Position numbers and translations under genes: made by a program. Positions 277 through 39,610 of a stretch of DNA of 56,257 bases are shown one piece after another. A model generated the notes under the pieces. The model had not been told where the DNA came from. It was given only the letters and a program-made list of their open reading frames with translations, and searched no databases. Positions within the stretch are counted from its first letter, which is position 1, and each line of letters opens with the position of its first letter. Source of the DNA: Actinomycetota bacterium. Its GTDB lineage: Bacteria > Actinomycetota > Acidimicrobiia > IMCC26256 > PALSA-610. The stretch covers positions 205 to 56,461 of the forward strand of contig PLBO01000147.1 in the NCBI GenBank assembly GCA_003134555.1, given 5' to 3'.

Positions 277-1146
277 TCAGCAGCGCGGTGAGATCCTCGA
301 CGCCTTCGTTCCCACGATGCAACGCGCCACGCCCGGAACCCGGACCTTGCCGTCCTTCTCGAACGCGCTCACCTTCGCGATGGCGTTTGCCCGAATCCGC
401 TCCCGCGCCGGGCTGTCGACCTGCTGCAGCGCCGCAACTGCGAGGGAGACGTGCTCGCTGATCATCTCCCAATACTGCGCGGGCGATTGCGTCACGAGTT
501 CGACGTCGACGTCCCACTCGGCAACGTCGCGCAGCCCCGCGCTCTCGTACAGGGCACTGACATATCCCGGGGCCGCGCACCGAAACATATTCGGCCCGTC
601 CGGGTCGGGTGGTGCCACCACCACCGTCTCGCTCGCGATTGCGTGCATGGCGATCGTCGTCCACGGGTTTTCCTCGGGCTTGACCCATACCGACGAGCAG
701 AGACGTCCGCCCGGCTTGAGCACGCGCGCGAACTCGGCCGTCGCCTTGCCCGTGTCGGGGAAGAACATGTACCCAAAACGCACCGAGACGCCATCGAATG
801 TGGCGTCGTTGAACGGCAGATCGTCGGCGCTGCACACCTTCGTCTCGATATTGGCGACCCCTTGCGCCCGGGCTCGTCGCGCGGCGACGTCCAGCATCTC
901 CGCTACGAGGTCGGTCAGCACGACGCGACCGTTCGGCGACAGTCTCGCGATGCTCAAACCCGGCTCACCCGTGCCCGCGGCGATGTCGAGATACTGATGA
1001 TCGGAAGCGATGTCGAGACGCTCGATGATCGCGGCGCTGACCGGGCCCAGCTGATCCATGATGACCGAGTCCCACTTCTCCCAGCCCGCAGAGAGCCCGG
1101 CCCACGTCGCTCGCTGAACGCCTCGGATCTCATCGGCGCTCGGCAT
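277..1146 (-). CDS. Class I SAM-dependent methyltransferase
   Basis: The protein has about 289 residues. The AdoMet-binding motif I (L-D-I-A-A-G-T-G-E-P-G) lies near residue 55, followed by an acidic strand (V-L-T-D-L) and a post-motif region with L-K-P-G-G-R. This is the UbiE/methyltransferase-11 type of fold. The substrate cannot be inferred. The start at ATG 1144-1146 was chosen over a frame opening 20 codons earlier, because a GGGAGG ribosome site sits just upstream and homology-like sequence begins there. It is the first cargo gene of the remnant-rich region: an acyl-CoA dehydrogenase tail fragment follows its 5' side at 1270. Confidence 0.82.
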   Translation of the reverse strand: MPSADEIRGVQRATWAGLSAGWEKWDSVIMDQLGPVSAAIIERLDIASDHQYLDIAAGTGEPGLSIARLSPNGRVVLTDLVAEMLDVAARRARAQGVANIETKVCSADDLPFNDATFDGVSVRFGYMFFPDTGKATAEFARVLKPGGRLCSSVWVKPEENPWTTIAMHAIASETVVVAPPDPDGPNMFRCAAPGYVSALYESAGLRDVAEWDVDVELVTQSPAQYWEMISEHVSLAVAALQQVDSPARERIRANAIAKVSAFEKDGKVRVPGVARCIVGTKASRISPRC

Positions 1147-1269
1147 CGGCCCTCCCGCTATCGATGCATCCGCCGAACACGAACGCACTCCTTGGCGGCC
1201 GTGCATGATGCCCTGATGGTTGAGTTCGTGTCACGCGCTGCGGTTGGTAGCCGTGGTTGGCGAGCCATT

Positions 1270-1335
1270 GGCGGCACGAGTGAGATCCCGCGACTCGTCG
1301 TCGCGAGAAGCATCTCCGGCCTGCACATTCCTTGA
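1270..1335 (+). pseudogene. Acyl-CoA dehydrogenase C-terminal remnant, copy 1
   Basis: In frame to TGA 1333-1335 the sequence reads G-G-T-S-E-I-P-R-L-V-V-A-R-S-I-S-G-L-H-I-P. This matches the very end of acyl-CoA dehydrogenases, whose last residues are typically F-E-G-T-S-E-I-Q-R-L-V-I-A-R-x-I-S-G. Nothing upstream of 1270 looks like the rest of that enzyme. It is therefore a gene tail without a gene. Two more copies lie at 2261 and 3144. This copy keeps an intact reading frame and stop codon but begins later than the other two. Confidence 0.75.
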
Positions 1336-1420
1336 TCTCGGTCCGTCTGGTCGGGTCCGGACCGCGAGTCGATCGTGATCGATCGCGTCGACAACAATGC
1401 GCGCGAGTCGCGTGGCCATC

Positions 1421-2146
1421 TCAGCGAGGTGTCAGCACGCAGTACTCGTTGCCCTCGGGGTCGGCCAGCACAACCCACGAGACATCGCCTTGCCCGATGT
1501 CGATGCGCCGGGCTCCAAGTGCGATGAGACGCTCGACTTCCGCATCTTGGTCGCCGTCGGTCGGCGGTGCGATGTCGAGATGAAGGCGGTTCTTACCCGT
1601 CTTGGCCGCGCCGGTGGGTGGGCCGAACGTCACGAAGGGACCTCGTCCGTCCGGCTCTCGGATGGCGGTGTCGCCGTCTTGGTCGTACACGATCGGCCAG
1701 CCGGTCGCCTCACTCCAGAACCGGCCGACGATTGGGTCCGCCGGCTCGAACACGATGGCACCGATCAGATCGGTGGTCGCCAAGAAGTCGCCTCGTAGGA
1801 CCACGCAGAACTCGTTGCCCTCGGGGTCGGCCAGGACGACGTGGTCGACGTCGCTTGATTGCCCGATGTCGACGCGCCGTGCACCCAATGCGATGAGCCG
1901 ATCGACCATCTCGGACTGGTGCTCGGGTGATTCGCTGACGAGATCGAGATGGATCCGGTTCTTTCCGGTCTTCGGCTCCGGAACGGGAAGGAACGAGAAC
2001 GCGAAGCGCGTTCCGTCCGTCGGGAAAAGGCTGACCTCTCCGTCGGTCTCCTCATGGATGTCCCAGTCCAACGTGGCAGCCCAGAAGCGCGCCAGACGCA
2101 ATGGATCGTTGGCGTCGAAGCACAGAGTGACGAGTCGAGTGGTCAG
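1421..2146 (-). CDS. VOC family protein with two glyoxalase-like domains
   Basis: About 241 residues form two tandem vicinal-oxygen-chelate domains. Each ends in a near-identical V-V-L-A-D-P-E-G-N-E-(F/Y)-C-V-x-L signature, near residues 110 and 235. This glyoxalase/bleomycin-resistance fold is common in actinobacteria, usually with unknown substrate. The frame stays open far upstream, but sequence before about 2150 is arginine-rich and unlike the family. A strong GAAGGAGG site at 2151-2158 lies six bases before a CTG codon at 2144-2146. I propose that CTG as an unusual start; no ATG, GTG or TTG fits. Acyl-CoA dehydrogenase remnants bracket the gene on both sides. Confidence 0.82.
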   Translation of the reverse strand: MTTRLVTLCFDANDPLRLARFWAATLDWDIHEETDGEVSLFPTDGTRFAFSFLPVPEPKTGKNRIHLDLVSESPEHQSEMVDRLIALGARRVDIGQSSDVDHVVLADPEGNEFCVVLRGDFLATTDLIGAIVFEPADPIVGRFWSEATGWPIVYDQDGDTAIREPDGRGPFVTFGPPTGAAKTGKNRLHLDIAPPTDGDQDAEVERLIALGARRIDIGQGDVSWVVLADPEGNEYCVLTPR

Positions 2147-2260
2147 CTCAAGCCTCCTTCGTCGCCGACCCCCGAGCGGATCTCCGCGACGATCATGCCG
2201 ATGAGTATTGCAGCCGTTCTGCCGCTGGCATCGGTAGCCGCCTCCATCCCTACTGCCCTG

Positions 2261-2350
2261 ACGTAGCAAAGTGAGTTACACGATCTTCGAAGGCACCTCG
2301 GAGATCAGCGGTTGGTCGTCCCAAGAAGCATCTCAGGCCTGCATATTTCG
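2261..2350 (+). pseudogene. Acyl-CoA dehydrogenase C-terminal remnant, copy 2 (frameshifted)
   Basis: The sequence reads K-V-S-Y-T-I-F-E-G-T-S-E-I in one frame. After a one-base loss it continues as R-L-V-V-P-R-S-I-S-G-L-H-I-S in another. This is the conserved end of an acyl-CoA dehydrogenase, broken by a single-base deletion at about 2306. The first 40 or so bases are nearly identical to copy 3 at 3144, starting from a shared ACGTAGCAA. The second half resembles copy 1 at 1270. There is no body of the gene upstream. Confidence 0.78.
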
Positions 2351-2382
2351 TTTCGCTGGGACCGTCACGGCTCGATGTTTGG

Positions 2383-2780
2383 TCAATCGAAGCGCACGCG
2401 ATCTCGAAGCCAACGCGCGAGCCAATCCTCGTTTACCTCGCGCGCGGCAACCGAGAGCATCGCGGCCTCGGCCTCGTCGACCACCGGCGGATTCGGTTCC
2501 CATGAGCCGTCGTTGAGGTCGATGAACATCGCGAGCGTTGCCCACGCCGCGCGCTGTTGCCGTCGGGCAGTGGATGGTTCCACGAGAGGCGGCACGTGAG
2601 AACTGCTGCCTTGTCGAAGATGTCCGGGTAGAAGTCCTCATCTCCGAAGCCGGCCTGTGGGGCGTGCAACGCCGAGTCGGCGAGGTCGACGCGCGCAGCC
2701 TTGACCAACACGGCCGCCTCGACGCCGGTGACCTGCTCCGCGAGCCAGAAGTATTCGGCGAGCGAGACATACCGCGTCAC
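2383..2780 (-). pseudogene. Doc/Fic-type toxin, frameshifted in the active-site motif
   Basis: The intact product would be about 132 residues of the death-on-curing (Fic/Doc) family, which modifies translation factors with a phosphate or nucleotide. The N-terminal part, from GTG 2780, runs to N-H-P-L-P-D-G-N. The frame is then lost and resumes one base over as R-A-A-W-A-T-L-A-M-F-I to a stop at 2383. Restoring one A near 2554-2555 turns AACAGCGC into AACAAGCGC and rebuilds the family motif H-P-x-x-D-G-N-K-R. The toxin is therefore probably inactive, unless this is a sequencing error. The start overlaps the antitoxin stop as GTGA. Confidence 0.8.
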
Positions 2781-2986
2781 TTGGTGAGTCGCTCAAGCAG
2801 CTCCTTGTCACGCTCGAGCAACTGCCTGGCCCGCTTGGTGAAGTCTTTGTCGGCGCGCACGCGCTCGACCTCAGCCGCGAGGGAGTCGACGATCAACGCA
2901 TTCAGGCTCTTGGCTTGCACTCGCGCGACGGCCTCGGCTTGGTCTGCGAGATCTTCGGGAAGGCGGACAGTCGTTTGCTTGGTCAT
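2777..2986 (-). CDS. Ribbon-helix-helix antitoxin paired with Doc-type toxin
   Basis: The 69-residue protein begins M-T-K-Q-T-T-V-R-L-P-E-D-L, the DNA-binding strand of a ribbon-helix-helix fold. It continues into a charged helical tail that would wrap the toxin. In such type II modules the antitoxin neutralises the toxin and represses its own operon. It lies directly upstream of the Doc-type gene, and its TGA stop overlaps the toxin GTG start by four bases, a translational-coupling arrangement. Because the toxin is frameshifted, the antitoxin may now be an orphan. Confidence 0.8.
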   Translation of the reverse strand: MTKQTTVRLPEDLADQAEAVARVQAKSLNALIVDSLAAEVERVRADKDFTKRARQLLERDKELLERLTK

Positions 2987-3143
2987 GATGTCATGCTATC
3001 GCGAATGCAAGAGGCGCCGGTCGTCTGAGGCTAGGGAGGGCTTGTATCCCTACTTCATCCGTACAACTCACGGTTACATGCCGTACTGCACGGACCAGGA
3101 GACCGAGTCGGGCCCGCTCAGCGGACGTGTGCGCATTGGTCGC

Positions 3144-3264
3144 ACGTAGCAAGGTGAGCTACACGATCTTCGAAGGAACGTCGGAGATCGAGCGGCTTCT
3201 GGTCGCGGATCGAGATGGTGTTCCCGTCGCGCGCCTGACTCCCGCGCGTTACTCCGGGTCGTGA
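3144..3264 (+). pseudogene. Acyl-CoA dehydrogenase C-terminal remnant, copy 3
   Basis: From ACGTAGCAAGG the sequence reads S-K-V-S-Y-T-I-F-E-G-T-S-E-I-E-R-L-L-V-A, again the end of an acyl-CoA dehydrogenase. It then diverges and stops at TGA 3262-3264. The first 45 or so bases match copy 2 at 2261 with only about five differences, including upstream bases that are not part of the conserved protein core. It separates the Doc-type module from the VapC-type module. The 155 bases upstream (2987-3143) show no recognisable gene. Confidence 0.75.
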
Positions 3265-3275
3265 TCTCGATGGCG

Positions 3276-3656
3276 CTATGTGTCGACAATCGGCAGCGAG
3301 ATTCGTGCGGCGGCGAGAAGGTGCGTGATGTCAGCGCGGTCGGCGGTCACGATCTCAGCGGTGCGGTCGATGGCAAGAACGACAACTGCTGCGTCAACGA
3401 CATCGCTCGTTCTCGAGCGTGCGAGCAGTCGCCCAGCCGCGTACCCGTCGACTTCGCGGAAGTCGACGATGTCGCAGCCTCGCAGGAACCGACGTAGCTG
3501 CGCTTGACGACCTGATCTGCTCACCTGCGCTATCACCGGAGCAGGAACGCACGGGATGACACCGGCCTCGAGGCGCACGCGATGTTCTGCCCACGTCGAT
3601 CGTGCGTTTCGATCAGCTGCGACGAGCGCGCCGGCGTCGTAGACCGCCGGGTTCAC
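3276..3656 (-). CDS. VapC-type PIN-domain toxin
   Basis: The protein has 126 residues. PIN-domain acidic residues are visible: Y-D-A-G-A-L near the start, a central D-V-V-D-A segment, and V-T-A-D-R-A-D near residue 105. PIN toxins are metal-dependent RNases, often cutting tRNA. The GTG at 3654-3656 is chosen because it overlaps the stop of the antitoxin gene as GTGA and puts the first PIN aspartate seven residues in. The frame opens further upstream but only inside the antitoxin. Unlike the Doc module, this toxin looks intact. Confidence 0.82.
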   Translation of the reverse strand: MNPAVYDAGALVAADRNARSTWAEHRVRLEAGVIPCVPAPVIAQVSRSGRQAQLRRFLRGCDIVDFREVDGYAAGRLLARSRTSDVVDAAVVVLAIDRTAEIVTADRADITHLLAAARISLPIVDT

Positions 3657-3916
3657 GCAGTGCGCCGAGCGCGTCGGCTTCGGTTCGCGAGTCGGCTGCG
3701 TGCCGCGTCGAGCTCCTCGGGACTCAACGCGCCGTGCCTTGCTTCCCACTCGGCGACCCCTGCGAGTCCGTCACGGACGACGAGGGCCCGGCGCGCGGCG
3801 TCCGTCATCCACGCCGAGACGCTCATTCCATCGGCGGCTGCAGCCGCAACGATGCCGGCGTGCACTTCGGGATCGACCGTGATGGCCATCTTGGGCGAGG
3901 GCTTTCCGCGAGGCAT
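3653..3916 (-). CDS. Antitoxin of the VapC-type module
   Basis: The 87-residue protein starts at ATG 3914-3916. It has a ribbon-helix-helix-like beginning with M-A-I-T-V-D-P-E-V-H, then a helix ending in S-A-W-M-T-D-A-A-R-R-A. The C-terminal half is acidic and then strongly basic. It precedes the PIN toxin with a four-base GTGA overlap, as in the neighbouring Doc-type module. AT-richer sequence upstream at 3917-3950 probably carries its promoter, where such antitoxins usually autorepress. Confidence 0.75.
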   Translation of the reverse strand: MPRGKPSPKMAITVDPEVHAGIVAAAAADGMSVSAWMTDAARRALVVRDGLAGVAEWEARHGALSPEELDAARSRLANRSRRARRTA

Positions 3917-4018
3917 CACGAAACTATACTCCACGAGTAGGAGACTTACACCGACACGCGGCTGAGGGCGGGCGCACCGCCCCTCGACCTCGACTGACGT
4001 GGTAGCCCTAGCTCCGAC

Positions 4019-4272
4019 ATGGCGACGTCGGAAATCCCCGACGAGCGCGCGCCCGAGTCGCGCGCGGCGGCGGGCAATGCGCTCCTCCGATTGCCCCGTG
4101 TCGTGCGGCGACCGCTCGCCTTCGTGCTGGCGCATCTCCCGTTCCCCGACGCGAAGTTGCTCGCCATCGTCGCCAGTCCGGAAGTGCGCGCCGAACCGTG
4201 GGCGGTGTACCGGCGGCTGCGAGAGACGCATCCCGTCTACCGGTCGCGGCTCGGCGCGTGGATCGTCGCGAG
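4019..4272 (+). pseudogene. Truncated cytochrome P450-like N-terminus
   Basis: From ATG 4019 about 85 residues resemble the beginning of an actinobacterial cytochrome P450. They include P-E-V-R-A-E-P-W-A-V-Y-R-R-L-R-E followed by P-V-Y-R-S-R-L-G-A-W-I-V. The similarity stops at about 4268-4275, where the family would continue to the helix B and haem-binding parts. From there the sequence makes sense only on the opposite strand. It is a gene head joined to foreign DNA and cannot encode a working oxygenase. Confidence 0.55.
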
Positions 4273-4434
4273 CGCCACGATCGCGTTGTGCACGCCGCCG
4301 CGCAATCCGATATCGAGCGCGCTCCCCGCGCCGATCGCGAGAACAACCAGCACGAAGGGCGCCGGGTCGACGGGGAGGGGACGAGTAGGCACGGGCGCCG
4401 GCCACGGAACTTCGACGACCGGCGGACTCTGCAT
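4272..4434 (-). pseudogene. Truncated membrane-protein N-terminus, DUF4173-like
   Basis: Reading leftward from ATG 4432-4434, a proline-rich start leads into one hydrophobic stretch (F-V-L-V-V-L-A-I-G-A-G) and then a D-I-G-L-R-G-G-V-H-N-A segment. This resembles the first membrane segment of DUF4173/DUF4153-like proteins. It stops abruptly at about 4272, where the head of the P450-like gene on the other strand begins. Two convergent genes thus lost their 3' parts at one junction. The family assignment is tentative; the truncation is clearer. Confidence 0.45.
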
Positions 4435-4522
4435 GCAGCGGTGAAGCTACGAGCGTCGTGTGGAGGCAATGCCCGAGGGCTGTGAAGATCGCGTGGAACA
4501 CTCGCTCGCTTTCCGGGGCACA

Positions 4523-5041
4523 ATGTCGCCGATGCTCGACGTCGTACTGGTTCAGCCGCAGATCGCCACGAACACGGGCAACATCATCCGGCTGTGTGCG
4601 AACGTCGGTGCCCGGTTGAACCTCGTGCGTCCGCTCGGCTTTTCTCTCGATGACGCCGCCCTGCGCCGCGGCGGACTCGACTACCACGAGATCACCGACA
4701 CGCAGGTATGGGACACGTGGCAGGACTGCCGGGCCGCGCTCGGTGTGGAGCGGCGCTGGTTCGCTACGACGACGCGCGTTCCCCATCGACGCTACGACGA
4801 TGTCGACTACGACGCGGGCGACGTCGTGGTCTTCGGCTGCGAGGCGACCGGTCTCGGCGAAACGCTGCTGGCCGAGTTCTCGTCCGAATGTCGCCTACAC
4901 GTCCCGATGCGACCGTCGAATCGCAGCTTGAATCTCGCGAACGCGGTGAGCGTCGTTGCGTACGAAGCCTGGCGTCAACACGACTTCGACGGCGCGGCGA
5001 CGGGAACGTTCGAAGAGTCGCTGCGTCCCGCCCGAGGTTAG
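4523..5041 (+). CDS. trmL: tRNA (cytidine(34)-2'-O)-methyltransferase, SPOUT family
   Basis: About 172 residues. The SPOUT trefoil-knot motifs are clear: V-Q-P-Q-I-A-T-N-T-G-N near the start, V-F-G-C-E-A-T-G-L-G in the middle, and S-N-R-S-L-N-L-A-N-A-V at the knot. TrmL methylates the wobble ribose of certain leucine tRNAs in the cytoplasm as a homodimer. The start could be ATG 4523 or ATG 4532; neither has a strong ribosome site, and sequence before 4520 is unlike the family. It is the first intact housekeeping gene to the right of the remnant region, and a DUF427 tail fragment follows it. Confidence 0.85.
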   Translation: MSPMLDVVLVQPQIATNTGNIIRLCANVGARLNLVRPLGFSLDDAALRRGGLDYHEITDTQVWDTWQDCRAALGVERRWFATTTRVPHRRYDDVDYDAGDVVVFGCEATGLGETLLAEFSSECRLHVPMRPSNRSLNLANAVSVVAYEAWRQHDFDGAATGTFEESLRPARG

Positions 5042-5044
5042 GGG

Positions 5045-5162
5045 CGGCGCGGTCCACGACGGCATCGTTTGGAGCTACGAGAATCCGATCCCCGCAGCCA
5101 TTGGCGTGACCGGGCTGTTGTGCTTCCACAACGATCGGGTCGATCTCACCGTCGGTAGCTGA
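5045..5162 (+). pseudogene. DUF427 C-terminal remnant
   Basis: The frame ending at TGA 5160-5162 reads G-I-V-W-S-Y-E-N-P-I-P-A-A-I-G-V-T-G-L, then C-F-H-N-D-R-V-D-L. This is the characteristic last third of DUF427 proteins (W-S-Y-x-x-P-x-x-A followed by F-x-x-x-R-V-D). The start and central parts of the domain are absent, because trmL ends at 5041. No start codon or ribosome site fits. It is another gene tail left in the remnant-rich region. Confidence 0.6.
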
Positions 5163-5903
5163 TCAGTCCCGCGCGGGCCGGTAGCGCAGGAAGAGGTAGT
5201 CGTCCTCGGCGCAGACTGATCGCAGGCGAAGCCGTTCGAGTTCGTCGAGCGTCGAGCCGGCGATGATCCGCTTCGCGTCGCCGCTCGCCAGCAGCGGCGA
5301 GAGCGTCACGCACAATTCGTCGAGCAAGCGCGCTCGCGCGAGGTCGCCGTTCAGCGTCGGACCGCCTTCGGCGAGGACCGTGCGCGCGCCGCGCGCTCCG
5401 AGCTCGCGCATCGCCCGGGTCAGGTCGACATCGTGCTCACCGGCAATGATGACGTCAGCGACCTGCGCGGCTCGAGCCCGATCGTCCGTGTCGGCATCGG
5501 TAACCGTGATCACGATCGGGCGCTCGGTCGCCGCGGTGAAGAACGGGGCATCCCAGTCGAATCGACAGCTGCGTGACACGACCGCGATCGGGGGTACGGC
5601 CGTCTGCCCGCGCTCTCGACGCGCGTCCTGTGCGGTTTGCGGGAGCACCGCGGGTCCGTAGTGCTCGGCCTTCATCGTTCCCGAGGCAACGAGTACGACG
5701 TCGGTGAGTGAGCGCAGGACCTGGAACAGCGCCTTGTCCGCGGGTCCGCCCAGCGCGCCGGACACGCCGTTCCACGAGGTTCCGCCGTCGACGCTCACGA
5801 TCATGTTGAGGCGAACGGACGGACGACCATCCGCGCCCGGGAGGTCGGCGTACACCTCCGCCGGGTCGACGGCGTCGGCACAGTCGGGAAAGAGCATCCG
5901 CAT
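5163..5903 (-). CDS. Pyrimidine reductase-like (RibD C-terminal domain) protein
   Basis: About 246 residues. It has the RibD-C/dihydrofolate-reductase-like fold: R-L-N-M-I-V-S-V-D-G near residue 32, a G-G-P-A-D-K segment, and the NADPH loop A-E-G-G-P-T-L-N-G near residue 185. The family includes 5-amino-6-(5-phosphoribosylamino)uracil reductase of riboflavin synthesis and relatives of unknown substrate. ATG 5901-5903 is preferred because GAGGGG lies five bases upstream. It is the last gene of a three-gene operon with the LLM flavoprotein (16-base gap) and the Nei glycosylase. A flavin link with the LLM protein is possible but not shown. Confidence 0.85.
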   Translation of the reverse strand: MRMLFPDCADAVDPAEVYADLPGADGRPSVRLNMIVSVDGGTSWNGVSGALGGPADKALFQVLRSLTDVVLVASGTMKAEHYGPAVLPQTAQDARRERGQTAVPPIAVVSRSCRFDWDAPFFTAATERPIVITVTDADTDDRARAAQVADVIIAGEHDVDLTRAMRELGARGARTVLAEGGPTLNGDLARARLLDELCVTLSPLLASGDAKRIIAGSTLDELERLRLRSVCAEDDYLFLRYRPARD

Positions 5904-5919
5904 AGCAACCCCTCTGCAG

Positions 5920-6960
5920 TCAAGCTGCGGCTTCGGGGACTCCCGGGTAGACCGGCTTGACATTCCACGCCTGTGCGAGCAGCTCGTATGACCGGAGCCG
6001 GTCGATGGTGCCGTGAACGATCGTCGTGATCATCAACTCGTCCGCGCCGGTTTGTTGCGCGAGTGCTTCGAGCTCCGACCGCACGTGGTCGGGCTCACCG
6101 CGGATCAGCGGCGCGGTCCAACCGCGGACGATCTCGCGTTCCATCGGCGTGAACACGTATTCGGCGGCTTCTTCGGGCGTCGGGACCTGCGTCGGTCGGC
6201 CCTGGCGAAGACGGACGAAGGAAAGCGCGCTGGATCCCGAGAGCCAGCGCGCGCGTTCGGCGGTCTCCGCGCAGATCACGGGGACGCCGATCATTGCGTA
6301 CGGCTGCTCCAGCTCACTCGACGGACGAAATGCTTGCCGGTAGATCTCGAGCGCGGCGATCGTGTTCTGCGACGCGAAATGATGCGCGAACGAGAACGGC
6401 AAGCCGAGCGCGCCGGCAACGCGCGCGCTGAAGTCGCTCGAGCCGAGCATCCACACCGCGGGGCGGTACCCGCGACCGGGCACGGCGGTGATCTGCGGAT
6501 GCGCGCCGTCGAAGAACAAGAACAGGTCGCGCAGCTGCTCGGGAAAATCGTCGGCCGCGAGAGACGGGCTCCGCCGCAATGCGGCGGCGGTGACCGGATC
6601 GGTTCCGGGCGCACGTCCGAGCCCGAGATCGATGCGACCCGGATGCAGCGCCTCGAGCATCCCGAACTGTTCCGCGACGACGAGCGCGGCGTGATTGGGA
6701 AGCATCACGCCGCCGGCGCCGACTCGGATTGTCGTGGTCGACGCCGCGAGGTGGGCGATGAGCACTGGGGGAGAGGAGCTCGCGATCCCGGGCATGTTGT
6801 GATGCTCGGCAACCCACAAACGCCGATACCCGAGGCGTTCGGCGAGGCGAGCCAACTCGACCGAGCCGGCGAGAGCCATGGCCGCCGTCGTTCCATCACC
6901 AACCGGAACCAGATCGAGCACCGAGAGCGGGGGGCGCCGGGCCGGCGAAGGATCAGTCAT
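5920..6960 (-). CDS. LLM class flavin-dependent oxidoreductase
   Basis: 346 residues with the bacterial-luciferase-like TIM barrel: L-S-V-L-D-L-V-P near the start, W-V-A-E-H-H-N near residue 49, [10 protein letters not shown] near residue 82, and [11 protein letters not shown] near residue 105. This is the MsnO8/LuxA-like subgroup, which uses reduced FMN or F420. The substrate is unknown. It overlaps the end of the upstream glycosylase gene by eight bases, so the two are co-transcribed and probably translationally coupled. Confidence 0.88.
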
Positions 6961-7789
6961 CCGAGTGGTGAACCTCCCGGACGCCCGCCATCTTCCCGTC
7001 GGATTGGCAGCGAGGGCACCAGTAGGTCGAGCGCGCGGCCCGATCGCGCCGGCTGACGATGGTTGTGCCGCAGCGCGGGCAGCGCCGCCCCGTTCTCCGA
7101 TAGACCGCGAGCCCGGTGCCGTAGGTCGTGCGGCGCGCCGTCGTCACGTTGCTGGTGAGTTGATGCCGCGCGGTTTCGTAGATGCGTCGCCGAGTCGGCT
7201 CGTCGAGCTCGGCGATGGTCGTGAACGGAAAGATACGCTCGGCCCAGCAGATCTCCGACTTGAAGACGTTTCCGATCCCGGCCGCGACCCGTTGGTCGAG
7301 GAGTGCGGCGGCGAGCTCGGTACCCGGTTCCAGCAACGCGAGCCGTGCCACCACCGCTTCGAGATCGACTCCGGATTCGCACAGGTCCGGACCGATGCGC
7401 TCGAGCATCCGGGACGCGCGGGTAGGACGATCGCGTCCGTCACGTTCGCGCCGAAGCTCGACGATCGGTGCCGCGAAGCAGACAGCAGTCGTGCCGTCGT
7501 CGACCCGCACGACGACCCGCGCGCTGTGGCCGGGCCGGCGCCAACGCTCGGCCGGTCGGTAGACATGCCACGCACCGGTCATCTGCATATGCGTATGCAG
7601 CACGTGACCGTCGGCGAAGTGCACGAGGAGGTGCTTGCCGGCCGAGTCGACCGCGGTGATCGCGGTGCCCGGTTCCGGCCCGCGTCGACCGCGAGGATCG
7701 CGACGCACTTCGAGCTCGACGAGCCGCTTGCCGACCAGCGCCGCGCGCAGTTGCGCCGCGGCGCGGAAGATCGTGTCTCCTTCGGGCAC
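6953..7789 (-). CDS. nei: Formamidopyrimidine/endonuclease VIII family DNA glycosylase
   Basis: 278 residues of the Fpg/Nei family, which removes oxidised bases and nicks the strand during base excision repair. The catalytic N-terminus P-E-G-D-T-I is typical of the actinobacterial Nei2 subgroup. Because the catalytic proline must be residue 2, the start must be GTG 7787-7789. An ATG three codons upstream would bury it. A helix-two-turn-helix segment ([10 protein letters not shown]) lies near residue 170. The C-terminal zinc finger is C-P-R-C, then 16 residues, then C-P-R-C. It leads the operon with the LLM flavoprotein. Confidence 0.9.
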
Positions 7790-37635: not shown

Positions 37636-38306
37636 GCTTCCTTCGTGACGCGCTGCTGGTGGCGGGCAAGGATCTGCGCATCGAGCGCCGCTCCCGGGTC
37701 GCGCTCCAGCAGATCATCCCGTTCGGCGGCGTCGTCGTGATGCTGTTCGCGTTCGCGCTCGATTCCGACCGCACGCTGCTGCACCAAGCTGCACCCGGGC
37801 TGTTCTGGGCCGCGGTGCTCCTCGCCGTCTTGCTCGCAGTCGGTCGGTCGTTCGCGATCGAAGAAGCCAACCGGGCGCGCGACGGGCTCCGGCTGTCGGG
37901 GCTCGACGGCGGATCGATCTTCCTGGGCAAGGCCGCCGCGGTCGCGGTCGAGTTGTTCCTGCTCGAGGTGATTGTCGGAGCCGCGGTCGTCGTGTTGTAC
38001 GACGTCTCCGTCCGGGGCGCGGTCGTCCTTCTGTGCGCGGCTGTGGCCGCGACCGTCGGGTTGGCGGCCACCGGTACGGTCTACGGCGTGCTGGCCGGAG
38101 GATTGCGCGCCCGCGAGACGCTCCTGCCTCTGCTCGTGCTCCCGGCCGTTACCCCGGTGATGCTCGGCGCGACGCGTTCGTTCCAAGCCGCGCTCGACGG
38201 TACGCCGGGCGACGCGTGGCCCTGGGTGCAATTGCTTACGGCGTTCGCGGTGCTGGCGGTAGCCGCGGGCACCGTCGCGTTCGGTCCGCTCCTGGAGGAA
38301 GCATGA
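37632..38306 (+). CDS. ccmB: Haem exporter membrane subunit CcmB
   Basis: 224 residues, six membrane segments. The start region L-L-V-A-G-K-D-L-R-I-E-R-R-S and the G-L-D-G-G-S-I-F-L-G-K-A segment near residue 90 match CcmB. It forms the membrane part of the CcmAB ABC complex. ATG 37632 overlaps the ccmA stop, and its own stop overlaps ccmC as ATGA, so the three are translationally coupled. Confidence 0.88.
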   Translation: MSFLRDALLVAGKDLRIERRSRVALQQIIPFGGVVVMLFAFALDSDRTLLHQAAPGLFWAAVLLAVLLAVGRSFAIEEANRARDGLRLSGLDGGSIFLGKAAAVAVELFLLEVIVGAAVVVLYDVSVRGAVVLLCAAVAATVGLAATGTVYGVLAGGLRARETLLPLLVLPAVTPVMLGATRSFQAALDGTPGDAWPWVQLLTAFAVLAVAAGTVAFGPLLEEA

Positions 38307-39025
38307 AACGGCTCTTCCTCGCGACGACCGTTGTCTCGCTCGGAGTCACGGCGGTATTCGCGTTGTGGGTCACGCCTCCGCGCGCCGACCAGGGCTTCGA
38401 CGCGGTGCGACTGCTCTATCTGCACGCACCGACGGCGTGGATCGCGTACCTCGCGTTCGGCGTCACCGCGCTCGCATCACTGCTGTGGCTGTTCCCGCGC
38501 ACGCGTAGCGCCACGTGGGATCTGCTCGCCGGTGCGTCGGCCGAGGTCGGCGTCGTGTTCACCGGGCTCACGCTCGTACTCGGGTCGCTCTGGGGCCGGC
38601 CGACGTGGGGAACCTGGTGGGAGTGGGACGCGCGTCTCACCACCACCGCGATCCTTTTCTTCCTCTATCTCGGCTATCTCGCCCTGCGCCGCACGGGAAC
38701 GACCGCCGACGAGCGCGGGAAGCGGAGCGCGATCGCCGCGCTGATCGCCTTCGCCGACGTTCCCGTGAGCTACCTGTCGGTGACCTGGTGGCAGACCCTG
38801 CATCAGCAGGGCACCGTCTTCAACGAGCGGCTCAGCGTGAAGATCGATGGTTCGATGGCCTTCACGCTCGTCGCCGCGGTCGTCTCGTTCACCTTGCTCT
38901 ACGGCTACCTCGTGCTCGAGCGCTTCGAGCTCGCGCAGCTCGAAGAGGGGCGCGAGGCACGCGAGCTCGAACGCGCGATCGCGGAACGTGTTCGCGCCGA
39001 GCACGTGGAGGTCGCGCCGGTATGA
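38303..39025 (+). CDS. ccmC: Haem handling protein CcmC
   Basis: 240 residues, six membrane segments. The tryptophan-rich haem-binding motif W-G-T-W-W-E-W-D-A-R-L-T lies near residue 102, flanked by the conserved periplasmic histidines (L-Y-L-H-A-P and T-L-H-Q-Q-G). CcmC loads haem onto CcmE. A charged 25-residue C-terminal tail follows. ATG 38303 is used; the frame is open far upstream but only antisense-like. The stop overlaps ccmD. Confidence 0.92.
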   Translation: MKRLFLATTVVSLGVTAVFALWVTPPRADQGFDAVRLLYLHAPTAWIAYLAFGVTALASLLWLFPRTRSATWDLLAGASAEVGVVFTGLTLVLGSLWGRPTWGTWWEWDARLTTTAILFFLYLGYLALRRTGTTADERGKRSAIAALIAFADVPVSYLSVTWWQTLHQQGTVFNERLSVKIDGSMAFTLVAAVVSFTLLYGYLVLERFELAQLEEGREARELERAIAERVRAEHVEVAPV

Positions 39026-39153
39026 GTCACAACTGGGGATTCGTGACCGCGGGCTACTCGATCACCACGGCCGCGCTCGGCGGCTACTTCGTGTGGATAC
39101 GGCTGCGGACCCGGCACCTCCGGCGAACACTGCGCGACGAGAACCGTGACTGA
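39022..39153 (+). CDS. ccmD: Small membrane protein CcmD
   Basis: 43 residues from ATG 39022: M-S-H-N-W-G-F-V-T-A-G-Y, one membrane helix, then a basic tail R-T-R-H-L-R-R-T-L-R. The Y-x-x-x-x-x-x-L-x-G-Y-F-V-W-I pattern is typical of CcmD, which stabilises the CcmC-CcmE complex. It is easily missed, because the reading frame runs open through the preceding gene. It overlaps ccmC by four bases and ccmE by eight. Confidence 0.82.
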   Translation: MSHNWGFVTAGYSITTAALGGYFVWIRLRTRHLRRTLRDENRD

Positions 39154-39610
39154 TTCGCCGCCGGCGCCGGCGCCGCTCCGCAAGCGCAACCGGTTGCGGT
39201 ACACGATCGTCGCGGTTCTGTGCGTCGGCGCGGTCGCATGGATGCTCGTGTTGATGCAGAAGAACGTCGTCTTCTTCAAGACGATCTCGCAAGCGGTGCG
39301 GGACGAGCCGCACGACGGTATGCGCACGATGCGGATCGGCGGGGGCGTGCTTCCGCTCAGCATTCAGCAGCACACCAACGGCGCCGAATTCGACCTCACC
39401 GAGGGCGGGGTCACCGTGCGCGTCCACCACGTCGGCAACGAGCCCGAGCTGTTCAAGGATTGCGCGCCGGTGGTTGCCGAGGGTCATTGGAGTGCGCCGG
39501 GCTCGACCACGTTCGACTCGACCCGCCTGCTGATCAAGCACGGGTCCGACTACACGCCGCCCAAGACCGGCACCCAATGTCCGCCGGACCCGTTCGGCCG
39601 CGGCAGTTGA
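39146..39610 (+). CDS. ccmE: Haem chaperone CcmE
   Basis: 154 residues from GTG 39146. One N-terminal membrane anchor (residues 19-36) precedes an OB-fold barrel. The haem-binding motif is K-H-G-S-D-Y-T-P-P with His132 and Tyr136, the histidine form of CcmE; archaeal-type proteins use cysteine. It carries haem covalently to CcmF. It overlaps ccmD by eight bases and ccmF by four (TTGA). Confidence 0.9.
   Translation: MTDSPPAPAPLRKRNRLRYTIVAVLCVGAVAWMLVLMQKNVVFFKTISQAVRDEPHDGMRTMRIGGGVLPLSIQQHTNGAEFDLTEGGVTVRVHHVGNEPELFKDCAPVVAEGHWSAPGSTTFDSTRLLIKHGSDYTPPKTGTQCPPDPFGRGS

Follow-up and report, generated by a model that had tools for sequence, protein, structure and literature searches.

The integrative conjugative element (ICE) ICESt1 is found at the 3′ end of fda. 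Accretion of ICEs, integrative mobilizable elements (IMEs) and cis-mobilizable elements (CIMEs) has been defined for tandem att-bounded elements at one conserved gene end, with decayed members that lack integrase and transfer genes (PMC5704250). We describe a locus that resembles these cases at the start of a 56,257-nucleotide stretch of contig PLBO01000147.1 (C122 here) from an actinomycetotal bacterium of the class Acidimicrobiia, a stretch that is called the window throughout. Its first 3.3 kb hold three copies of the end of an acyl-CoA dehydrogenase (ACAD) gene, each on the plus strand, with small gene modules around and between them. With a probability of about 0.87, we read the window as an accretion array of decayed, CIME-type modules that would have collected at the 3′ end of the ACAD gene. 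The locus differs from the defined cases in its ACAD target in Acidimicrobiia, in modules that go down to about 0.9 kb, and in being known from sequence alone.

Integration into ACAD genes has been met before, and one of the enzymes involved, the phiC31 integrase, is a serine integrase. A pseudo-attB of phiC31 lies in an ACAD gene of Streptomyces rimosus (PMC7890619), and attB-21, a Mycobacterium abscessus prophage site used by a serine integrase, lies in an ACAD (fadE) gene (PMC9934374). Both sites are inside the gene, which is disrupted or probably inactivated; the present site, at the 3′ end, leaves the gene complete. The Dehalococcoides ssrA islands are alike in their array of displaced gene-end repeats, in having islands without an integration module and in the conserved motif beside each repeat, but they use a serine recombinase and a tmRNA gene in place of a tyrosine integrase and a protein gene (PMC3146451). 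PAISt of Streptomyces turgidiscabies is an actinobacterial element at the 3′ end of a protein gene and shows modular excision; it differs in its bacA target, its 8-bp palindromic site and its size as a large pathogenicity island (PMC4057263). No report of an ACAD 3′ end serving as attB for a tyrosine integrase was found in the literature searched. The process itself is already known; the ACAD target, the integrase clade and the spread over several families of the class seem new. In Acidimicrobiia, this end of a protein gene may be seen as the equivalent of a tRNA attachment site. The target is a coding sequence that diverges, so it records the order of integration and, in some genomes, how the 3′ end was replaced; tRNA sites, being near-identical, hide this history. 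If confirmed, mobile elements would here be altering, in nature, the final ~20 codons of a functional enzyme, and the locus would offer a marker for tracing the gene flow of small cargo modules.

Displaced gene ends and the predicted attachment site

An original prediction made on the window had placed three plus-strand ACAD ends here, and all three are found (tails 1 to 3, Table 1). It had also noted about 45 bases shared by copies 2 and 3, some of them outside the protein part; the two share 46 nt at 91% (2261-2306 and 3144-3189), and copies 1 and 2 have 40 nt in common at 83%. Comparison of the copy 2 DNA with the whole 4.63-Mb genome (G000, 98% complete) returned eight places, namely the three window tails, an orphan tail on contig C79 (E = 1.3e-10), an intact ACAD gene on contig C95 (E = 1.3e-7) and three weak matches (E = 0.04-0.4), with contigs C63 and C132 among the latter. 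A 30-base pattern allowing up to three mismatches found tails 2 and 3 and the C79 tail genome-wide, and its reversed control found nothing. Across the DNA, pattern and protein searches of the genome, the yield was the three window tails, the C79 orphan tail and one intact gene; the rest were weak or other ACAD genes. The tail repeats are real, and chance is excluded as their source. The reading frame of tail 2 has a one-base break after EGTSEI, and the likeness of tail 3 to ACAD fades past EIERLLVA.

The further claim that no body of the gene lies nearby was mistaken. The intact gene on C95, with the C-terminus DSKIYTIFEGTSEIQRLVVARSISGLHIP, is on the same strand as the tails. One RibD/DHFR-type gene (by eye) is common to C95, when reversed, and the start of C122, with identical stretches flanking the N gaps. 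Because the contig ends overlap in this gene, the intact ACAD stop is placed ~2.8 kb before window position 1 and ~4 kb upstream of tail 1; this adjacency of C95 and C122 we infer from the contig ends. The genome has 45 PF00441 matches, with none on C122.

The DNA that precedes the tails, which we call the arm, is absent from the intact gene. It stands upstream of tail 3, where the common DNA runs to ~110 nt (longer than had been noted), upstream of the C79 tails and, as a remnant, at tail 2. Arm-plus-tail copies also occur in the congener G003, in G005 of the same family and in G008. The fuller arms open with two or three ATCCCTAC-like repeats ~12 bp apart and close at the ACAD sequence TACACGATC. 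ACAD homology begins at nearly the same base (~TACACG) in 13 of 15 displaced tails from four genomes (tabulated as 13 plus the 2 of G008), the exceptions being window tail 1 and the distal G005 tail. Among the 13, C79b, G003:C327 and the third G005 tail are degenerate, and G003:C400 has little recognisable arm. The arm of tail 3 matches the R1 model at 103 bits (E = 2.3e-31, filters off), a site that is itself one of the model's training rows. A hairpin or intron reading of the arm was suggested by a palindrome near the core and set aside, as the DNA is better explained as the arm of an attachment site.

Tyrosine-recombinase cores usually take the shape of inverted half-sites around a short spacer. 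The putative core here, GATCTTCGA-AGGCACC-TCGGAGATC, has by inspection 9-base half-sites that are symmetric in 8 of 9 bases around a 7-bp spacer, within the 6-8 bp overlap of lambda-type sites. Arm-type repeats flank the core on both sides in the predicted attP sites and are degenerate in the window. Taken with the paired TCCCTA repeats, this 9-7-9 bp inverted-repeat arrangement resembles an attachment site of the lambda type. TCCCTA pairs lie within 150 bp of the gene end at 6 of the 9 integrase-bearing loci discussed below (G010 has one exact copy; G008 and G050 have none) and at 0 of 31 comparison loci, which represent ~26 distinct integrase-free genes. The comparison list held 33 loci, two of them without a motif match; the 31 that were scanned, two on shortened stretches, include four duplicates and G050 with its degraded integrase. 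The same TCCCTA-type repeats precede the attR tails.

A search for the core and the intact gene in related Acidimicrobiia had been proposed as a check, and its outcome favours the site. An arm-plus-core sequence model built from 11 sites found at least 17 full sites in 9 of 296 genomes of the class at E = 1e-9 or better: the 11 training sites and 6 new ones in 5 genomes. Ten candidates were scored per genome under stricter filters, so the counts are lower bounds. Many weaker matches to the model are plain ACAD gene ends. Five matches end before the end of the core (G041:C35:84163 and 87138, G026:C265:28824, G044:C95:1418 and G074:C440:3985) and could be arms of related elements with another target. 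The window's own genome has a second accretion locus on C79, where two arm-plus-tail sites lie 7.8 kb apart (25523-25667 and 33330-33464), the second degenerate and found by arm search. That contig also bears a 1210-aa TrwC relaxase, a VirD4-like ATPase (by eye) and an integrase of a different kind (38183-39370), and has no PF00441 match.

A tyrosine integrase behind the gene in relatives

The suggestion that the gene end is reused as an integration site is supported by related genomes, in which an integrase sits directly behind the intact gene and the same arm-plus-tail sites recur. In G005 a 369-aa tyrosine integrase (PF00589, 3.4e-19) starts 91 bp after the intact ACAD stop and is followed by a TrwC relaxase in two open reading frames (ORFs) and an HTH_17 xis-like gene. 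The first displaced tail, 97.6% identical to the intact tail over 83 bp, bounds this element at ~9 kb. On a single contig of G176 the order is ACAD, integrase, a weak xis-like helix-turn-helix gene, TrwC relaxase, cargo and attR, over ~14 kb, and the attR tail agrees with the intact tail at 77 of 82 positions. Both elements have an integrase of their own next to one att site and attL and attR repeats as flanks, as expected of an IME; each also has a TrwC relaxase, with the element genes searched in part for type IV secretion system components. The G176 element (L283:5787-10795) carries four cargo genes, one of which encodes DUF4365 plus TPR repeats and has a weak PADLOC match to Aga_REase-PNTD1-PNTD2 (2.9e-6), possibly a defence system.

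Relatives of this integrase occur in 35 of the 296 class genomes at E = 1e-30 or better. Thirty loci were examined; an ACAD 3′ end immediately precedes nine of the ten closest (42-100% identity) and none of the 20 more distant ones (Fisher p = 7e-7 for 9/10 vs 0/20), for which at most 1.5 kb of flank was considered, in several cases shortened by a contig edge. Eight of the nine have a full-length ACAD gene, and the ninth, in G037, has a gene end at a contig edge that was recognised by DNA match. That integrase of the same clade (L220:16422-16487) stands behind a different ACAD-type ending, IYEGTNQIQRM (by eye), hinting at a shift of target within the enzyme family. Among 396 genomes of the phylum none matched the integrase query at E = 1e-60, a level reached in 9 of the 296 class genomes; as the phylum search lacked a positive control, this only suggests that the clade is restricted to the class. 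The clade had no match in the plasmid collection and a single one in the phage collection (27%, E = 1e-20). In G020, from another family of the order, an intact ACAD, a 1.2-kb module, an arm-plus-tail site and a ribbon-helix-helix (RHH)/Doc-like pair are found together (L282:7291-9154).

Displaced tails in three relatives diverge from the intact tail with distance. G005 has four behind its intact gene, whose identity to the genome's own intact tail falls outward (79/82, 77/82, 71/82 and 53/73). The two of G008 fall from 76/81 to 68/81, and the two of G014, which lie on another contig and were ordered from their orientation, from 74/81 to 68/81. If an incoming element donates the 3′ end of the gene, intact genes should shift in similarity at the core. 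The ACAD genes of G000 and G001 are 92% identical over the 600 nt that precede the core and 69% over the 55 nt that follow; followed in 30-nt steps, identity begins to drop inside the core. Those of G008 and G010 change from 77% before the core to 95% behind it. When each pair was set against its own baseline of 74 overlapping windows upstream, 8 of the 45 gene pairs were out of range (7 lower and 1 higher, with G000 in 4 of the lower ones); other pairs, such as G004 and G006, have no break at the core. The signal is less sharp overall: these comparisons support a replaced 3′ end in G000 and are suggestive elsewhere.

Modules are shared between the window and its congener G003. Window positions 305-1274, with the methyltransferase, are 94% identical to G003:C327 3338-4303, a segment flanked by ACAD tails (one with a core at 3167-3200 and, on the other side, an arm plus tail at 4366-4515). 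Positions 1414-1828, within the glyoxalase, are 94% identical to G003:C287 415-1, directly ahead of which stand 22 bases identical to an ACAD-tail end. Between the two genomes, the methyltransferase, glyoxalase, RibD-end and ArsR-type segments agree at 94-97%, against 87% for 600 nt of ACAD and 81-82% for genes to the right of the array. ACAD-tail remnants border the methyltransferase and glyoxalase segments in G003, and the genes next to them there differ from those in the window. The comparison resembles presence and absence at tail borders, in a setting of one genome per species and with G003 in many contigs. A clean empty site was not obtained, since in G001 and G003 the genes right of the window array are separated or lie on different contigs.

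These observations support integration at the gene end and displacement of older ends; the chemistry, the exact crossover base and the travel of modules by co-excision with an integrase-bearing neighbour we infer. Most likely, a tyrosine-integrase clade carried on small mobilizable elements recognises the ACAD core. An element with integrase, xis and relaxase would enter the cell, and its integrase would recognise the core GATCTTCGA-N7-TCGGAGATC in the IFEGTSEI codons, with an attP bearing paired ATCCCTAC arm sites as partner. Integration would rebuild the ACAD gene with a 3′ end donated by the element, and the old 3′ end, now beyond the element's other border, would become part of attR, made of arm and displaced tail. 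Later elements would use the same place and push older ones outward. Decay and deletions would then remove integrases and one arm, leaving the order gene, module, tail, module, tail. Modules could move again through excision between an element's own attL and a more distant attR.

Weighing the accretion reading

The original account missed three things: the intact gene close by, how arm and core are built, and that no cognate integrase was found. The last of these opens a list of points that weigh against our reading. The cognate integrase was not found in the window's own genome, where four weak matches were returned, the best two at 28% and 33% identity; given 98% completeness, the window array is therefore probably a remnant. 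Tail 1 has neither an arm nor the left half-core. No paired repeats were seen behind the window tails, and with attR-type arms only, the modules look immobile on their own. The window tails match the intact gene at 55/77, 58/81 and 57/80, with no trend by distance, which would be expected if all of them are old and which lends the divergence pattern no support. Among the relatives, the G055 integrase (42%) is one of the ten closest and lies away from ACAD, and four of the nine ACAD-linked integrases are truncated or broken (the N-terminus is missing in G008, a stop interrupts the frame in G010, the G037 integrase is split in two and that of G050 is degraded). The rise in the G008-G010 comparison starts ~75 nt ahead of the core, and since just 8 of 45 pairs are out of range, replacement of the 3′ end is not established for each genome. 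The window Doc module aligns from the tail onward with two tandem G005 modules at 80-81%, which is no closer than the ACAD gene at 82-83%, so vertical inheritance of this module is possible. Finally, the array is read entirely from DNA sequence.

Modules bounded by a tail can be small, with 883 bp between window tails 2 and 3 and between the first and second tails of G005, and 1018 bp in a further case, and Doc modules lie right behind att tails in G000, in G005 (twice) and in G020. It is unlikely that the one-armed tail sites form a cassette system of a non-integron kind, in which an invading integrase would move sub-kilobase toxin-antitoxin or enzyme modules singly and rewrite the enzyme's C-terminus each time. 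An integron-like arrangement, in which an integrase supplied in trans would cut out such modules and insert them one circle at a time, is very unlikely. Lambda-type integrases normally require both arms. The single modules have an arm of the attR type, but no exact CATCCCTAC repeats turned up beside the other core, and the genome yielded no cognate integrase. Integron attC sites were also considered; judged by eye the repeats are unlike the attC consensus (no attC or IntI model search was made) and consist instead of the 3′ ends of a gene together with arm sites.

Successive duplication of one broken locus had been offered as the alternative from the start. In the form of tandem copying of ACAD and its neighbour through ordinary homologous recombination, with later decay, it is highly improbable. 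A tandem duplication of the Doc module does exist in G005 (93% over ~1.1 kb), and repeats of ~80 bp could support unequal crossing over. However, the modules between the window tails differ in content, and duplication leaves unexplained the arm that the intact gene lacks, the nearly fixed start of homology in 13 of 15 displaced tails and the integrase at the gene end in relatives. That intact ACAD paralogues once stood here and decayed in place, an outcome that would have overturned the initial idea, is barely credible: paralogues are common in a genome with 45 PF00441 matches, but nothing of the ACAD body was seen in front of the tails, where tail 3 has the arm instead, all window tails best match one family member of this genome, and tails 2 and 3 share their start base.

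Cargo modules and neighbouring genes

The cargo named in the original prediction was largely recovered (Table 1). Its methyltransferase, VOC and Doc assignments have Pfam support, while the VapC-type toxin is a by-eye reading with neither a Pfam nor a PADLOC match; with its possible partner it reads like a VapBC pair, of which neither ORF has a confident match. As expected of CIMEs, the module ORFs searched (glyoxalase, Doc and RHH types) include no integrase or transfer genes; tails flank the modules between tails 1 and 2 and between tails 2 and 3, with arms at tail 2 (a remnant) and tail 3 and none at tail 1. Types named by eye in this work are VirD4-like, sigma factor, MntA/HepT, ArsR, SRPBCC, RibD/DHFR, TrmL and LLM.

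Table 1. Features of the array at the start of the window
Feature	Position	Strand	Remarks
UbiE-type methyltransferase	277..1206	-	PF01209, 3.8e-21; in front of tail 1
Tail 1	1274..1335	+	displaced ACAD 3′ end, from core overlap through stop codon; holds GTSEIPRLVVARSISGLHIP and stop
Double glyoxalase/VOC protein	1421..2269	-	PF18029, 6.9e-54, two stretches; between tails 1 and 2; true start probably further inside the ORF
Arm remnant before tail 2	2246..2276	+	single ATCCCTAC (2246-2253), then the arm's end
Tail 2	2277..2349	+	displaced ACAD 3′ end; putative core GATCTTCGA (2282-2290), overlap AGGCACC (2291-2297), TCGGAGATC (2298-2306)
Fic/Doc-family toxin	2433..2780	-	PF02661, 4.9e-5; between tails 2 and 3
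Probable RHH antitoxin of Doc module	2777..2986	-	weak HicB/Arc match, 6.6e-4, below Pfam cut-off
P′-type arm of tail 3	3046..3159	+	repeats ATCCCTAC (3046-3053) and ATCCGTAC (3057-3064), then conserved DNA to the core
Tail 3	3160..3213	+	displaced ACAD 3′ end; putative core GATCTTCGA (3165-3173), overlap AGGAACG (3174-3180), TCGGAGATC (3181-3189)
Possible PIN/VapC-like toxin	3276..3749	-	behind tail 3; by eye
Possible RHH antitoxin partner	3653..3919	-	weak HicB match, 0.0063, below Pfam cut-off

The Doc gene of the window is apparently broken in frame in its second half. Its relative in G005 has 132 aa (PF02661, 9.6e-10), and G005 DNA aligns to window Doc residues 1-76 and 72-109 as separate pieces; in the window the next frame carries on in ORF 2383-2595, and the G005 relatives read through. 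The RHH-Doc gene order is the same in G020 and G118 (by eye). The Doc gene near ACAD in G118 was not counted as a further case, a pyruvate kinase-like gene (by eye) lying between the two.

Right of the array, window positions 4460-7000 are a second variable junction, where TrmL-like, RibD-like and LLM-type genes (by eye) stand adjacent that in G001 and G003 are partly spaced by several kilobases or found on separate contigs. Between the array and this junction, at 4019-4444, an ORF resembles the truncated N-terminus of a cytochrome P450 (by eye).

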